From Desulfovibrionaceae bacterium (GTDB lineage Bacteria; Desulfobacterota; Desulfovibrionia; Desulfovibrionales; Desulfovibrionaceae): a stretch of 64,000 bases of DNA. Below, piece after piece: positions 3,760 through 62,870 of this stretch (position 1 is its first letter; each line of letters starts with the position of its first letter). The DNA is taken from positions 62,001-126,000 of the forward strand of contig JAQXJC010000031.1 of the NCBI GenBank assembly GCA_029008115.1, read 5' to 3'. The notes beneath the pieces are model-generated. The model ran no database searches. It had not been told where the DNA came from and saw nothing but the letters and a program-made list of their open reading frames with translations. Both the position numbers and the translations under genes were made by a program.

Positions 3760-5462
3760 AGATCAGACAGCTTCCGTTGCAGGGTTACGGCATTTTCCGG
3801 CTTTCCATCCAGCGCATTGCCGTAGCCCTTTCTGGCCTCGGCCTTGTGGCCCAGCGCGGCGGCAATGTCACCGTAGTGCTCCCAGACGGCCGGCTCGGCA
3901 TCCTTGTCCAGGTCCACGGCCCTGCGTATGCTCTTCCATGCACCGGCAACGTCGCCCGCGCGGAACTGCGCCCAGGCCAGAGAGTCCCAGATATAGGCGC
4001 TGTCGGGAGAAAGTTCCACAGCCTTGCCGAGCAGGCGCAGGGCACGCGGCAGATCGCGGTTCTGCTCCGCCAGCGTGTAGCCGACATAGTTCAGGGCCTG
4101 ATAGTGTTCCGGGGCCTTTTGCAGAATGCGCTCCATGCCCTGCATGGCGCGGGCCTTGTCGCCAAGCTGATCATCCAGCGAGGCGAGCAGAAACAGCAGC
4201 TCCGTATTGTCCGGCCACTGGGCAGAGGATGCCTCCGCAACATGGCGTGCCTCCTGAAAGGCCCTGCTGCCGGCAAGAATGCGAATTTCCGCCAGGGCAA
4301 ACTCCGCCATGTCCGGATATTCCCCTCTGGCCGTGCGCGCCAGCATCAGCGCATCCTCCTTCCTGCCCTGATCATGGAGAATTTGCAGCCGCAGGAGCGT
4401 GGCATGAGGACGGCAGGCCGCTGTGGCGGGAATGTTATCCAGCCAGTGCAGGGCGGCTGCCGCATCACGGTGCTGCCGGTAGACAAGCTCGGCCAGCAGC
4501 AGGGGGATTTCTTCGGGGGCATCCTGCTGGTCTTTCAGCGTGGTAAGCACGGCTTCGGCAGCGCCATAGCGGCGCGCCTCCATAAAGACGCCGGCGGCGG
4601 TCAGCGCGAACTCCGCAGTGGCCGGCCCCTGCCTTGCCATGCGCAGGGCGGCGGATTCGCGGTTGAGCTTCAGTTCCGCCCGCATGATGCGCAGCAGGAG
4701 CTCCGGGCTTTCTCCGCGCAGGGTGCGGGCCTGTTCATACAGGTCGCGGGCGGCGGCCCATTCCTGGCGCTGTTCGTGCAGATAGGCCAGGTCCGTAACC
4801 GCCTCCACGAAATCGGGCGTGAGTTGCAGCGCCCGCCGCAGATGCCGCATGGCCTGCTCCTCCTGTCCCAGAGCGGCCAGCGCCCGGGCGTGGCAGCGTT
4901 CCACCACGGCGGTGCGCTCGGAGGCGGGAATGCCGCGCAGCAGCGTTTCGGCCTCCTGCGCCTTTCTGTTTCTGAGCAGCAGCAGGGCAAGGCTCAGCCG
5001 GGCATCCGTGCTGGCGGGGTGCTTTTCCAGATAGCGGCGCATGTGCGCCATGCCTTCACTGGTATCTCCCGCCTCCAGGAGCTGCTCGGCGCGCAGCAGG
5101 TTCAGTGCCGCGTCGTCCGGATAGTGGCTGAGACCGGCGGCGATGAGGCCGGCTGTCTTTTCAGACTTGCGGGAGGCAAGAAAGGCGGCCGCCTCCGCAT
5201 AGGTTGCCGCAGGCAGCGTCTGCGTTTTCAGGTTCTCCAGAGCATCTTCCATCTGGGCGGTGTCTTCGCGGCAGAGCGCGTCCTCCAGGGCCAGCACGGC
5301 ATATATGCGTTCTGCTCCGGGCGTCAGCGTCCATTCCCCCGCGGCTGTTCCCGTGCTGTCTCTGGAAGACAGCTGCGAACAGCCGCCACAGCCAAGCAGC
5401 AGCAGGGAAGGGGAGGCAATCAGGGCGGCGACGCCCAGGGCGAGCAAGGTCTTTCTGTTCAT
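3756..5462 (-). CDS. TPR-repeat lipoprotein
   Basis: This is a large tetratricopeptide-repeat lipoprotein of about 568 residues. The start MNRKTLLALG at 5462 is preferred over the ATG five codons upstream, because only then does a typical signal peptide and lipobox (SLLLLGCGG) sit at the very N-terminus. Helical repeats of about 34 residues run through almost the whole chain; examples are ALAALGQEEQAMRHLRRALQ, ALNYVGYTLAEQNRD and IWDSLAWAQFRAGDV. Such proteins are scaffolds, often in outer-membrane assembly or secretion. The gene overlaps the sigma factor stop upstream and the LolB-like lipoprotein gene downstream by a few bases. The partner proteins are unknown. Confidence 0.85.
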   Translation of the reverse strand: MNRKTLLALGVAALIASPSLLLLGCGGCSQLSSRDSTGTAAGEWTLTPGAERIYAVLALEDALCREDTAQMEDALENLKTQTLPAATYAEAAAFLASRKSEKTAGLIAAGLSHYPDDAALNLLRAEQLLEAGDTSEGMAHMRRYLEKHPASTDARLSLALLLLRNRKAQEAETLLRGIPASERTAVVERCHARALAALGQEEQAMRHLRRALQLTPDFVEAVTDLAYLHEQRQEWAAARDLYEQARTLRGESPELLLRIMRAELKLNRESAALRMARQGPATAEFALTAAGVFMEARRYGAAEAVLTTLKDQQDAPEEIPLLLAELVYRQHRDAAAALHWLDNIPATAACRPHATLLRLQILHDQGRKEDALMLARTARGEYPDMAEFALAEIRILAGSRAFQEARHVAEASSAQWPDNTELLFLLASLDDQLGDKARAMQGMERILQKAPEHYQALNYVGYTLAEQNRDLPRALRLLGKAVELSPDSAYIWDSLAWAQFRAGDVAGAWKSIRRAVDLDKDAEPAVWEHYGDIAAALGHKAEARKGYGNALDGKPENAVTLQRKLSDL

Positions 5463-6547
5463 GAGGAGGCAATCCATTCGTCGGAAAAATCCTTGATGTT
5501 TCCGGCGAGATGCTGGCGCAGCTTCTCCAGCAGACGGGCTTCCAGCTGGCGCACACGTTCACGTGTAACATTATACCGTTCGCCGATTTCCCGCAAGGTG
5601 GCGGGCTCGTCCGTCAGCAGGCGGTTTTTCAGGATGTACAGCTCCTTCTCATTGAGCTTTGGCAGGATTGTCTCCAGCTTTTCCCGCAGCAGGCGGCTGA
5701 TCTCATCGCTGGCAAGGCTTTCTTCTATGCCGGGCCCCAGCGCGGGAAGAAAGTCCATGCGCGAGGCGTTGCCGCTCTCGTCGCCCACGGTGACGTTGAG
5801 CGACATGTCCGTGGAGGCAAGGCGCTGCTCCATCTCCGTAATCTGATCCGGACTCACGCCCAGCTTTTCCGACAGCATGGCGGCATCGGGGTCAAAGCCC
5901 TGCGCGATGAGCTTCTGCCGCTCCTTGTTCAGATTGAAGAACAGCTTGCGCTGCACCTGTGTGGTGCCGATCTTCACCATGCGCCAGTTGTCCATGATGA
6001 ATTTCAGGATGTATGCCTTGATCCAGAATGCGGCATAGTAGGAAAACTTGATGCCCTTGTCCGGATCGAACTTGTTGACGGCACGCATCAGTCCCACGTT
6101 GCCTTCCTGAATAAGGTCCAGCACGTTCTGCATCCAGCGGCGTTGAAAATCCATGGCAATGCGGACCACCAGCCGGAGATGCGACGAGACGAGGCGGAAG
6201 GCCGCGTCGGGATCGTTCTCATCCCGTACACGCCGTGCCAGCTCGAATTCTTCCTGAGGCTGGAGCATGGGAAAGCGGCTGACCTCACGCAGATACAGAT
6301 GCAGATTATCCTTGCCGCTGGCCAGCGAAGGAAGACGCGCGGCCTGCTCCTCTTCGTTCAGGTCCGGCCCGGCCTCCACATCCAGAGGCTCTGCCTCCAG
6401 ATCAAGCGGCCCGTCCTCAAGCAGGACCTCCGGTTCGGCGCAGTCGTCGCCGGAAAGAACCTCTGCATCCAGTGCTCCGGGATTGTCGTGCGCGCCGGCG
6501 GCGCTGTCCGAAGTGGCTTTGGGGGACAACTCTCTGGTTTTGTTCAT
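5459..6547 (-). CDS. rpoH: RNA polymerase sigma factor, RpoH-like (sigma-70 family group 3)
   Basis: This is an alternative sigma factor of 362 residues. Region 2 begins near residue 82 (NLHLYLREVSRFPML), and the core-binding and -10 recognition segments follow (DLIQEGNVGLMRAVNKFDP, then FSYYAAFWIKAYI). Residues 199-207 read QRKLFFNLN, which matches the RpoH box typical of sigma-32 proteins. Region 4 ends with the helix-turn-helix TLREIGERYNVTRERVRQLE. A strongly acidic, alanine/proline-rich extension of about 75 residues precedes region 2 and is longer than in classical RpoH. The gene heads a minus-strand run of two lipoproteins, rpiB, cysS and an M48 protease, which fits a heat-shock or envelope-stress regulon. 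That link is inference. Confidence 0.85.
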   Translation of the reverse strand: MNKTRELSPKATSDSAAGAHDNPGALDAEVLSGDDCAEPEVLLEDGPLDLEAEPLDVEAGPDLNEEEQAARLPSLASGKDNLHLYLREVSRFPMLQPQEEFELARRVRDENDPDAAFRLVSSHLRLVVRIAMDFQRRWMQNVLDLIQEGNVGLMRAVNKFDPDKGIKFSYYAAFWIKAYILKFIMDNWRMVKIGTTQVQRKLFFNLNKERQKLIAQGFDPDAAMLSEKLGVSPDQITEMEQRLASTDMSLNVTVGDESGNASRMDFLPALGPGIEESLASDEISRLLREKLETILPKLNEKELYILKNRLLTDEPATLREIGERYNVTRERVRQLEARLLEKLRQHLAGNIKDFSDEWIASS

Positions 6548-30689: not shown

Positions 30690-31784
30690 ATGAAGTCTGT
30701 AGGGAATTTTTTTGCATCCACCACGGGCATCATCGTCGTGGGGCTTGCGCTGGGCGTGCTGGCCGTCCTGCTGCAATATGCGGGGAACCCGGGCAATATG
30801 GGCATTTGCGTGGTGTGCTTCAACCGCGACATCGCCGGGGGCATTGGCCTGCATCGTGCGGAAGTAGTGCAGTACGTGCGTCCTGAAATCATGGGCATGG
30901 TGCTGGGTGCGCTGGCGGCGTCACTGTGCTTTGGTGAATTTCGTGCGCGTGGAGGCTCTTCCCCCATTACCCGCTTTGTGCTGGGTATGGTGGCGTCCAT
31001 GGGCGCGCTGGTCTTTCTGGGCTGCCCGTGGCGCGTGCTTCTGCGCCTTGCCGGCGGCGACGCCAACGCGCTGTTCGGCTTTGCCGGGCTGGTGGTCGGC
31101 ATAGGCATAGGAACGCTCTTCTTCCGCCAGGGCTTTTCTCTGGGGCGCAGCATGCCGCAGAGCAGAGCATCCGGCTTTGTCCTGCCCCTGATCATGCTGG
31201 CTCTGGTGGCGCTGTGTCTCATATATCCTCCTGTGGCGGAGCAGGGCAAGAGCGGCGTGCTCTTCTATTCGCTGAAGGGGCCCGGTTCCAAGCATGCTCC
31301 CTTCCTGATTTCCCTTGGCGGCGGCCTGCTGGTGGGCCTGCTGGCGCAGCGCAGCCGTTTTTGCACCATGGGCGCGGTGCGCGATGTGCTTCTTTTCAAT
31401 CAGTGGCATCTGGCTCTGGGCTTTCTGGCCATGCTGGCGGCTGCGCTTGTCATGAATATGACGCTCGGCAGCTTCCATGCCGGCTTTGAAGGCCAGCCCA
31501 TCGCCCATACCCAGAGCATCTGGAACTTTGCGGGCATGGTGACGGCCGGCCTGGCCTTTGCGCTGGCGGGTGGCTGTCCCGGGCGTCAGCTGTTCATGGC
31601 CGGCGAAGGGGACAATGATGCCGCCGTGTTCGTGGTCGGTCTCATTGTGGGCGCGGCGCTGGCGCATAATTTTGGCATGGCCAGCAGTGGTGCGGGCATC
31701 GGCCCCAACGGCGCCGTCGCTGCCATTGGCGGCCTGATTGTCTGTCTGGCCATTGGATTCTTCAACTGCAAGCGGAGCGCATAG
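30690..31784 (+). CDS. YedE/YeeE-type sulfur or selenium transporter
   Basis: This is an inner-membrane protein of 364 residues with about ten hydrophobic segments. It carries the YeeE/YedE repeat motifs (MGICVVCFNRDIAGG near residue 31; LAQRSRFCTMGAVRDVLLF; LAFALAGGCPGRQLFMAGEG). The paired cysteine-containing repeats are family features of transporters for thiosulfate or selenium-related compounds. The version next to a TusA gene is usually called the putative selenium transporter YedE. AAGGAGG precedes the ATG. The tusA start follows after two bases, so the pair is coupled. Substrate assignment is inference. Confidence 0.85.
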   Translation: MKSVGNFFASTTGIIVVGLALGVLAVLLQYAGNPGNMGICVVCFNRDIAGGIGLHRAEVVQYVRPEIMGMVLGALAASLCFGEFRARGGSSPITRFVLGMVASMGALVFLGCPWRVLLRLAGGDANALFGFAGLVVGIGIGTLFFRQGFSLGRSMPQSRASGFVLPLIMLALVALCLIYPPVAEQGKSGVLFYSLKGPGSKHAPFLISLGGGLLVGLLAQRSRFCTMGAVRDVLLFNQWHLALGFLAMLAAALVMNMTLGSFHAGFEGQPIAHTQSIWNFAGMVTAGLAFALAGGCPGRQLFMAGEGDNDAAVFVVGLIVGAALAHNFGMASSGAGIGPNGAVAAIGGLIVCLAIGFFNCKRSA

Positions 31785-31786
31785 CC

Positions 31787-32002
31787 ATGAAAGTGATAGA
31801 TACCTGCGGGCTTTCCTGCCCCCAGCCGGTGCTGATGTTTCTGACGGCCATACGTGAAGGTGGCGAAAGCTGCTTTGAAGTACTGGTGGACAACGATGCC
31901 AGCCGGGAGAATGTAAGCCGGGCGGCTGCCAATAACGGATTCGGCGTGACCTGCGAGGATGCCGGACAGGGTGTAGTAAAAATCATTGCCAGCAGGCAAT
32001 AG
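31787..32002 (+). CDS. TusA-family sulfur carrier protein
   Basis: This is a small 71-residue carrier of the TusA/SirA family. The active-site motif is DTCGLSCPQPVLM (cysteines near residues 7 and 11), and the second cysteine position is the family persulfide site. It lacks the DsrE-like second domain of long YedF proteins. TusA proteins accept persulfide sulfur, or possibly selenium, from desulfurases and pass it on. Coupling to the YedE transporter suggests it receives or loads the transported chalcogen. Confidence 0.92.
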   Translation: MKVIDTCGLSCPQPVLMFLTAIREGGESCFEVLVDNDASRENVSRAAANNGFGVTCEDAGQGVVKIIASRQ

Positions 32003-32013
32003 ACGGACTGAAC

Positions 32014-32043
32014 GCAGGGGGAGGGCAGTGTCCATCCCCCTGC
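32014..32043 (+). promoter_or_regulatory. Intercistronic hairpin between tusA-like and DUF3343 genes
   Basis: GCAGGGGGA (32014-32022) pairs perfectly with TCCCCCTGC (32035-32043), seven bases before the next start codon. It has no T-run, so it is more likely an RNA stability or translation element than a terminator. Confidence 0.45.
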
Positions 32044-32049
32044 CGCAGT

Positions 32050-32613
32050 ATGAAGAGCAGTATGTGGAGCAGACTGAAAACATTGCTGGGGCGTCGGCAG
32101 GAGCCTGCGCGCGGCCTTTCCGACCGGGGCATGCTGACATTTTCCCATACAGGGGATGTCATTCGTGCGGAAGAGAGTCTGCGTGCGGCAGGATTTTCTG
32201 TGGAGGTGAAGGGCCCGCCCCCGGCGCTGCGGACAGGGTGCGACATGGTGGTCGTCTTTCCCCTCATGGAGCAGAGCGGTGTGCTGCGTCTCCTTCAGGA
32301 AAAGGACATTGCCTGTGAACGTGTCGTGCCTGTACAGGATGTGCTGCTGGAGCCGGTTTCCCTCTTTCATGTGCGGGATTTTGGCCGCTGGCTTATGGTG
32401 CGGGCGGCAAATATGAAAATCACAGTGGACAGGGAAACCATGCGCATTGTGAATATCTCCGGCGGCGGCTGTCCGGATGTTCCCTATCTGGCAGTCCGCC
32501 TCACAGGAATGGAACTGCACAGCGCGCCGGAACCGCGTACTCTGGGACGAACACTGTGCTGCTACAGTCTGCAACTGGCCTTTGAGGAACTGCGGAGGCG
32601 CACATGTGGCTGA
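32050..32613 (+). CDS. DUF3343 domain protein
   Basis: This is a 187-residue protein. Residues about 28-100 match the DUF3343 style, a putative Se/S-carrier-like domain (MLTFSHTGDVIRAEESLRAA, then CDMVVVFPLMEQSGVLRLL). A C-terminal half of unknown fold contains VNISGGGCPDVPY and ends in clustered cysteines (TLCCYSLQ). Either of two ATGs (32050 or 32062) could be the start. It overlaps the following kinase gene by ten bases. The function is not established; the position in the YedE/TusA operon argues for chalcogen handling. Confidence 0.72.
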   Translation: MKSSMWSRLKTLLGRRQEPARGLSDRGMLTFSHTGDVIRAEESLRAAGFSVEVKGPPPALRTGCDMVVVFPLMEQSGVLRLLQEKDIACERVVPVQDVLLEPVSLFHVRDFGRWLMVRAANMKITVDRETMRIVNISGGGCPDVPYLAVRLTGMELHSAPEPRTLGRTLCCYSLQLAFEELRRRTCG

Positions 32614-33467
32614 TTGTGGGGACGATGCCGGAAGAACATGCCGGACTGGAGACGGGAGAATGCCATGTGCGGGACGGCGGGCTGGAGCTTCCTTCCGGCA
32701 GGATGCTGCCCGTGGCCCGTGGAACGGCGGCTTTGCTGGGCACTGCCGTGCTGACCTGCGCGCATTACGGCCTGCCCGCGCCGCATGCCGTGCTGGCAGG
32801 AGACATCGGAACAGGAGCGGGCAGCCGTACCGCATATCGGTATTTGACGGAGCATCTGGCTTCCCTGCGCCCCCAAGGCATTACGTTCCACTATCTGTTT
32901 CCGGATGTGGACTGGCATAATCGCGTACTGATGGCGGCGCAGTCCCTGGAGCCGCAGCCCCTGCTGGTGGCGGACGCCGGATTCATGTACGTGGCAAAGA
33001 TGAGCGGCTATGCGGATGCCTACACGCTGTTCACGCCGGATGCGGGAGAAATGGCCTTTCTGGCGGATGAATGTGCGCCGCATCCGTTTTATACGCGGGG
33101 ATTTCTGCTGGATGAGGCCGCGGATGTGGCGGAACTGCTGGAGCGGGCGCGGCGTCATGGCAATTGCCCTCCCTACCTGATTGTGAAGGGGGCGGTGGAC
33201 AGTATTGCGGGGCCGGCGGGAATCATGGAAACTGTGGCTGAACCATGCGTGCCTGCCATGGAAGCCATTGGCGGTACGGGCGATATTATCACGGCACTGG
33301 TCACAGTATTTCTCATGCGTGGCGATGCCGTGGCGGAAGCATGCCTGCGGGCTGCGCGGTGCGGACGCCGCCTTGCCGCTCTTGCCAATCCCACGCCTGC
33401 CACCCAGATTGGTGAACTGCTGGCCTTTTTGCCTGAAGCGCTGCGCAGGGAAGGGGAGGGCGTGTAG
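32604..33467 (+). CDS. Ribokinase-fold protein, ADP-dependent NAD(P)HX dehydratase-like
   Basis: This is a 287-residue protein of the ribokinase superfamily. The phosphoryl-transfer motif IGGTGDIITAL near residue 218 keeps the GTGD anion hole. An upstream DAGFMYVAKMSGYADAYTLFTPDAGEMAFL segment resembles NAD(P)HX dehydratase and hydroxyethylthiazole-kinase relatives. The substrate is unknown. It is the last gene of the YedE-TusA-DUF3343 run, whose reading frames nearly touch, so it is likely part of the same pathway. A terminator follows about 100 bases downstream. Confidence 0.72.
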   Translation: MWLIVGTMPEEHAGLETGECHVRDGGLELPSGRMLPVARGTAALLGTAVLTCAHYGLPAPHAVLAGDIGTGAGSRTAYRYLTEHLASLRPQGITFHYLFPDVDWHNRVLMAAQSLEPQPLLVADAGFMYVAKMSGYADAYTLFTPDAGEMAFLADECAPHPFYTRGFLLDEAADVAELLERARRHGNCPPYLIVKGAVDSIAGPAGIMETVAEPCVPAMEAIGGTGDIITALVTVFLMRGDAVAEACLRAARCGRRLAALANPTPATQIGELLAFLPEALRREGEGV

Positions 33468-33568
33468 CGGCGCGGCACAGAACCCCGTGACCGGCGGAAA
33501 TCCGGTGATTTTTGCCCGCCGGCCCCGGGTGTTGCGGTATGCGGACATCTGCCACGGCAGATATGGTT

Positions 33569-33597
33569 ACGTCGCTCGATTTCGGGCGACGTTTTTT
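33569..33597 (+). terminator. Rho-independent terminator after YedE-TusA-DUF3343-kinase operon
   Basis: ACGTCGC (33569-33575) pairs with GCGACGT (33586-33592) and is followed by TTTTTT. The preceding 80 bases hold two further inverted repeats (around 33488-33530 and 33547-33562), which gives a very structured 3' end. Confidence 0.85.
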
Positions 33598-33871
33598 ATG
33601 CCAGCGGGAAGGGACTGCTCTGTTTGCCGTCCAGAGCCTGCCGCAGGGCCCTGCTGAGCTGATCCGGGCAGGAGGTGGGTTTTTTGCCGCAGGTGATGCC
33701 GCTGAGTTTGGCAATCACCTCTTCAGCCGGCAAGCCTTCCACAAGGCGGGAAATAGCTTCCAGATTTCCGGGACAGCCGCCGCTGAAGCGCACCTGCGTT
33801 ACCCTGTTGTCGGGTGTGAGTTCAAAACCGAGGCAGGAAGGGCATACGCCCATAAGAGGAAAGACGGGCAT
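33596..33871 (-). CDS. TSCPD-domain small protein (TIGR03905-like)
   Basis: This is a 91-residue protein with the domain seen at the C-terminus of B12-dependent ribonucleotide reductases. Key motifs are GVCPSCLGFEL, VRFSGGCPGNLEAI and TSCPDQLSRAL. Four conserved cysteines suggest metal binding. The start MPVFPLM at 33871 gives the usual length for the family. It is convergent with the chalcogen operon and shares its terminator area. The stand-alone function is unknown. Confidence 0.85.
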   Translation of the reverse strand: MPVFPLMGVCPSCLGFELTPDNRVTQVRFSGGCPGNLEAISRLVEGLPAEEVIAKLSGITCGKKPTSCPDQLSRALRQALDGKQSSPFPLA

Positions 33872-62507: not shown

Positions 62508-62870
62508 AGCACAAGAGCCGGACAGGCCACCGCTGCGGGATATTTCCCGGAGAGGAAAGTCCGGGCTCCACAGGGCAGGACGCCGGATAACATCCGGGAG
62601 GGGCGACCCTCAGCAAGCGCAACAGAAAGCAGACCGCCGCATCTATTGCGGTAAGGGTGAAACGGTGGGGTAAGAGCCCACCAGATGCTCTGGTAACAGA
62701 GCATGCTGGGCATGCCTCGTCTGGAGCAAGACCAAATAGGGAAGGCGGCTGGCCCGGCCGAGCCTTCCGGGTAGGTTGCTTGAGGGTGCGGGTAACCGCA
62801 CTCCTAGAGGAATGGTGGCCCCCGCCTTCGGGCGGCGACAGAACCCGGCTTATCGTCCGGCTCTTGTGCT
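62508..62870 (+). ncRNA. rnpB: RNase P RNA (bacterial type A)
   Basis: This is the catalytic RNA that removes 5' leaders from tRNA precursors. The universal core is present: GAGGAAAGTCCGGGCTCC near 62552, GCAACAGAAAG near 62617, AGAGGAATGG near 62805 and ACAGAACCCGGCTTATCG near 62838. The ends form a 16-bp P1 helix (62508-62523 with 62855-62870), which fixes the boundaries. No T-run terminator follows; ispDF starts 24 bases further on. Confidence 0.95.

Follow-up and report, generated by a model that had tools for sequence, protein, structure and literature searches.

A short run of genes in a Desulfovibrionaceae bacterium (window genome G000, 1.88 Mb) raises the question of which cargo its transporter and carriers handle, and what a ribokinase-fold protein does in their company. 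We analyzed a stretch of 64,000 nucleotides from contig JAQXJC010000031.1 (hereafter the window), in which four plus-strand genes occupy 30690-33467. They encode a YedE transporter, a TusA-family carrier, a long DUF3343 protein that we call SeSc, and a ribokinase-fold protein that we call KIN. The spacing from gene to gene is +2, +47 and -10 bases, and by order and spacing the four genes form one operon. The open reading frames and gaps are as claimed in a first reading of the sequence (the original prediction), which had described a compact cluster. We consider it quite likely that this unit is a selenium (Se) acquisition and hand-over operon feeding selenophosphate synthetase (SelD), in which KIN would carry out an ATP-dependent step. 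The evidence is comparative throughout, and the genomic context argues strongly for the selenium role.

Gene order and selenium neighbourhood

The YedE protein scored 461.6 bits against the curated seleno_YedE model TIGR04112 (cut-off 200) and 31.2 bits against NF052577, the model of the thiosulfate transporter TsuA (cut-off 400). The original prediction of a YedE-type transporter was thus right but too generic, as the protein belongs to a selenium-specific family. Performing an alignment to the structure 6leo, we find that YedE C225, C296 and C112 fall on the TsuA relay cysteines C22, C91 and C293, respectively, and that all three are present in 96 of 96 copies. Three of the four TsuA residues that contact the TusA-like partner YeeD are also kept: R28, E101 and E261 correspond to YedE R231, E306 and E83, whereas R98 is replaced by M303. 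The TusA carrier, of 71 residues as predicted, matched PF01206 well above its cut-off of 28.6 bits and carries the CPxP motif as CPQP at residue 11. By analogy, its Cys11 would fill the place of TsuB Cys17. The pair therefore resembles the TsuA-TsuB (YeeE-YeeD) thiosulfate uptake system in joining a transporter to a TusA-like partner, with relay cysteines and contact residues retained. In comparison, the two halves of YedE stand in swapped order, YedE belongs to another curated family, and the unit additionally holds SeSc, KIN and a neighbourhood of sel genes. Three variant loci (L096, L099 and L101) have YedE split into two half-genes with TusA downstream.

The selenium genes are found close to KIN in many genomes. 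Either selD, selB or selA lay within the fetched stretch of 33 of the 112 KIN loci (109 distinct), while we estimate that chance would give less than one such locus (~11 kb fetched per ~3 Mb genome). In many cases selD follows KIN on the same strand at a distance of 60-215 bases. In Desulfovibrio sp. RGIG1974 (L009), the genes run yedE-tusA-SeSc-KIN-selD-selB-selA on one strand, and the three sel genes exceed their NCBIfam cut-offs. The LysR neighbour in another locus (L106) belongs to NF040786, a selenium metabolism-associated family. The window genome encodes SelA (589 bits) and SelD (322 bits; L003, G000:C1:22099-23031). This SelD is probably a selenoprotein itself, because an in-frame TGA near its N-terminus (...KAAG-TGA-AAKV...) would be read through.

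The original prediction had proposed a search for conserved gene order across genomes, and the order proved strongly conserved. Wherever a named bacterial genome yielded a locus with full-length KIN, YedE, TusA and SeSc all lie next to it. Within the family of the window (199 genomes), KIN occurs in 73 genomes, and a YedE over cut-off starts <=3.5 kb away in 69 of them; contig ends interrupt the locus in the remaining four. Across the Desulfobacterota, KIN was found in 99 of 395 genomes (67 genera). When 80 loci were fetched from these KIN genomes, SeSc adjoined KIN in all 80 and YedE was nearby in 76, two of the four exceptions being contig ends. A replicon of Peptoclostridium acidaminophilum carries the same four genes in the same order together with selD. 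Among the Thermoproteota, KIN was found in 3 of 300 genomes, and two of their runs (L199 and L200) read split YedE, (TusA), SeSc, KIN, DsrE, HGD-D, BadF-type ATPase and selD, with a divergent LysR gene. HGD-D/BadF-type ATPase pairs can drive ATP-dependent low-potential reduction; lying between KIN and selD, the pair could possibly reduce Se(0) to selenide. The loci of related genomes cannot be counted as independent cases, so the numbers above exceed the number of separate evolutionary events; the best safeguard is that the unit recurs in Clostridia and archaea. Judged by these comparisons, the gene order is not accidental.

Several loci show variation around the unit. A small DUF1858-like protein with CxCC is encoded near KIN in 25 loci, mostly a few bases downstream (e.g. 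L140:6598-6831), and is a possible extra member. In a Nitrososphaeria archaeon (L034), SeSc-KIN follows an aldehyde ferredoxin oxidoreductase-like gene and a split YedE, and the genome has no SelD over cut-off. On plasmid3 of Nostoc carneum (L195), a KIN annotated as nnrD is preceded only by a truncated C-terminal half of SeSc, with no YedE nearby; this locus is apparently a transferred remnant. One further operon copy (L117, genome G435, 4000-6500) is decayed or poorly assembled: in-frame stops interrupt SeSc and KIN, and the reading frame of YedE is broken.

At the downstream border, the intrinsic terminator of the operon is a strong one, and a TSCPD gene converges from the other side (Table 1). 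The convergence was correctly predicted, but a terminator shared by both sides holds only in part: the T-run of the hairpin (33569-33592) is present on the plus strand and none is found on the minus strand, the TSCPD side. The TSCPD protein had been named alongside the cluster. We rejected it as a fifth member, as it adjoins the cluster in no other locus searched with TSCPD, and its position here is local.

Table 1. Positions of the operon genes and of other features in the window.
Feature	Position	Strand	Basis
YedE family putative selenium transporter, 364 residues	30690..31784	+	TIGR04112 461.6 bits; cysteine alignment to 6leo
TusA-family carrier, 71 residues, CPQP motif, Cys11	31787..32002	+	PF01206 50 bits; starts 2 bases past YedE stop
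SeSc, long DUF3343/Se_S_carrier protein, 187 residues	32050..32613	+	PF11823 in N-terminal half; gap to TusA 47 bases
KIN, ribokinase-fold, NnrD/ThiM-like, 287 residues	32604..33467	+	PF01256, invariant motifs, structure model; 10-base overlap with SeSc
Intrinsic terminator of operon	33569..33598	+	10-pair stem, 4-base loop, T-run; hairpin 33569-33592
TSCPD protein gene, convergent	33596-33871	-	TIGR03905 99.6 bits
Bacterial RNase P RNA class A	62514-62868	+	320 bits

SeSc and its partner KIN

The family PF11823 (Se_S_carrier/DUF3343) matched SeSc at 52 bits (cut-off 25) over residues 27-93 only. Residues 94-187 lie outside this match, and the C-terminal half matched no Pfam or NCBIfam family. 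Three cysteines of SeSc are invariant, namely C64 in the N-terminal half, and C141 (in SGGGCPDVP) and C170 in the C-terminal half. The C-terminal half has four cysteines in total, so the extra half that had been predicted is real but its description as cysteine-rich was overstated. The structure model of SeSc is confident, with a mean predicted local distance difference test (pLDDT) score of 89.8, and gave no clear fold match. Fold matches of the C-terminal half were weak (the interface domains of a dihydrolipoamide dehydrogenase, 6cmz, Z 7.6, and of a persulfide reductase, 6pfz, Z 5.8) and fall in a range that the search tool rates as common; no sequence match to this half was found in the PDB. 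An hhalign comparison with TSCPD (PF12637/TIGR03905) gave a probability of 26%, aligned through a shared GGC motif. The motif GGCPGN of the TSCPD protein in the window resembles SGGGCPDVP of SeSc.

Several parts of the unit have been linked to selenium before. In the proposal of Lin et al. 2015, YedE is a Se transporter, DUF3343 a Se chaperone and LysR_Se a regulator, the genes, which also include yedF/SirA-like ones, lying near selD; split archaeal YedE was already noted there (PMC5322559). The unit shares with that gene set YedE (TIGR04112), the TusA/SirA-like carrier, a DUF3343 protein, selD and the LysR neighbour. Unlike the DUF3343 proteins of that set, typically of 80-100 residues, SeSc continues into an additional conserved domain at its C-terminus. 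KIN is absent from the same paper, whose sole mention of a "kinase" is PSTK (PMC5322559), and is not named in two reviews (PMC9312934; PMC13188914). A description of KIN or of the C-terminal domain of SeSc was not found in the literature searched, subscription papers lying outside the search. The conserved C-terminal domain of SeSc appears to be undescribed.

KIN matched PF01256 (Carb_kinase superfamily) weakly and in its C-terminal part only (30.7 bits, cut-off 27). The GTGD motif that had been reported as intact is part of GGTGD at residues 223-227, with the catalytic Asp227; this motif and K195 are invariant in 35 homologues, one archaeal included. Structure prediction, which had been suggested as a check, gave a confident model (pLDDT 92.1) with an NnrD/ThiM-like fold. 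Its closest structural match is NnrD 3rss (Z 19.8, 228 residues, root-mean-square deviation 3.0). The fold is also like ThiD, ThiM and pyridoxal kinases, the last of these scoring nearly equal to NnrD (Z 18-19). In most Desulfovibrionaceae, the reading frames of SeSc and KIN overlap start to stop. To judge by its fold and active-site motif, KIN would transfer a phosphoryl group at the expense of ATP. We infer that it acts on a molecule other than NADHX and works as a close partner of SeSc. For the nucleotide- or metabolite-linked step that the original prediction could not name, phosphoryl transfer is accordingly a candidate; KIN scored below the NnrD dehydratase model (see below).

The close pairing could also mean that KIN is catalytically dead and serves SeSc as a nucleotide-dependent regulator or scaffold. 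The obligate adjacency and the usual start-stop overlap do suggest a complex of the two proteins. However, Asp227, K195 and GGTGD would be unusually well preserved for a dead enzyme, being invariant even in the archaeal sequence, and we regard a dead KIN as unlikely.

Cargo of the unit and the public label of KIN

We also asked whether the unit handles sulfur, as thiosulfate or persulfide, with its links to sel genes reflecting shared chemistry. YedE, TusA and DUF3343 all have sulfur relatives, the sampled hosts are mostly Desulfobacterota with many sulfate reducers among them, and an archaeon (G577) carries the SeSc-KIN pair with no SelD over cut-off. Nevertheless, the membership of YedE in TIGR04112 together with its failure against the TsuA model, and the repeated operons with selD, selB and selA, make a sulfur cargo improbable. 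The genomes that have KIN without SelA point the same way: there are four of them, and all keep a SelD over cut-off. These same four genomes led us to reject a strict dependence of KIN on SelA.

Some observations weigh against the selenium hand-over operon itself. In the window genome, neither selD nor selA is beside the operon; both are found on contigs other than its own. SelA was found in 95 of the 99 KIN genomes and in 260 of the 296 other Desulfobacterota genomes; it is so common in the phylum (355 of 395, ~90%) that its co-occurrence with KIN says little. The co-occurrence with selD and selA that the original prediction had suggested as a check therefore holds for gene neighbourhood, whereas presence and absence had little power. 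The archaeon G577 mentioned above fits a selenium role poorly, and no selenocysteine in place of cysteine was found in the proteins of the unit. KIN is not obligatory for the use of YedE either, since 12 Desulfovibrionaceae genomes have YedE without SeSc and KIN (in a thirteenth, G003, a contig end falls inside SeSc); SeSc-KIN is accordingly a separable module. Finally, in Methanococcus maripaludis, deletion of the split yedE abolished the use of none of the Se species tested, although the yedE transcript rose by 5.3 log2 units on Se depletion; KIN was outside that study (PMC11097638). Against these points stand the conserved order and the selD/selB/selA neighbourhood, which support the earlier suggestion that this is a little-described unit for taking up and activating a chalcogen.

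Copies of KIN are annotated as NAD(P)H-hydrate dehydratase (NnrD), the name that RefSeq gives to the Peptoclostridium protein. KIN might then be an ordinary NnrD whose place in the operon is fortuitous or serves redox repair, and its closest solved fold agrees with this. KIN and NnrD (the YjeF C-terminal domain) do share the ribokinase-like fold with its KG and G-x-G-D elements. Against the NnrD model TIGR00196, however, KIN scored 22.8 bits and three other KINs scored 42.6, 33.3 and 39.3 bits, all far under the curated cut-off of 129.85. The window genome has a separate, true NnrE-NnrD fusion on another contig (167 bits). A profile alignment of KIN with this NnrD covered the C-terminal 150 residues only, and the substrate-side half could not be aligned. 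In KIN, this substrate-side stretch (ADAGFMY, FTPD, GE.AFLADE, HP.Y) is largely invariant, and NnrD lacks these motifs. The gene context also differs, with KIN adjoining SeSc in every one of the 80 loci. An ordinary NnrD is hence very improbable, and the public label, set against the curated model, is misleading. A role as a vitamin B6-type kinase, providing the pyridoxal phosphate enzyme SelA with its cofactor in place of any action on selenium, is equally improbable: the structural similarity to pyridoxal kinases and the SelA neighbour of KIN in one operon speak for it, but KIN scored 12.1 bits against the pyridoxamine kinase model (cut-off 231), occurs in genomes without SelA, and is inseparably paired with SeSc, which a B6 kinase leaves unexplained.

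A possible route from import to selenophosphate

In the selenium hand-over operon that we favor, YedE would bring in Se in a reduced or sulfane-like form, passing it along a relay of cysteines as TsuA (YeeE) does. Cys11 of TusA would then accept Se from YedE, in the way that TsuB (YeeD) accepts sulfur. SeSc, with its two domains, may next bind Se on C64, C141 or C170 and pass it on. KIN, whose translation is coupled to that of SeSc, would use ATP to phosphorylate a small metabolite or a Se-carrier intermediate on which the hand-over depends. SelD would finally make selenophosphate for SelA; its gene lies elsewhere in the window genome but next door in many relatives. That Se is the cargo, which species is imported, the direction and order of transfer, and the reaction and catalysis of KIN are all assumptions of this route.

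Compared with prior proposals on selenium genes, what is new is one unassigned enzyme, KIN, and one undescribed domain, the C-terminal half of SeSc. We suggest, tentatively and at somewhat less than even chance, that SeSc and KIN make up an undescribed ATP-dependent selenium step between import and selenophosphate synthesis, with a kinase acting on a Se-handling metabolite or carrier. Such a step would be shared by Desulfobacterota, at least one member of the Clostridia and some archaea, under the public label NAD(P)H-hydrate dehydratase. The unit itself comprises few genes, one of them for an unassigned enzyme, and is carried by the culturable hosts Desulfovibrio piger and Peptoclostridium acidaminophilum.

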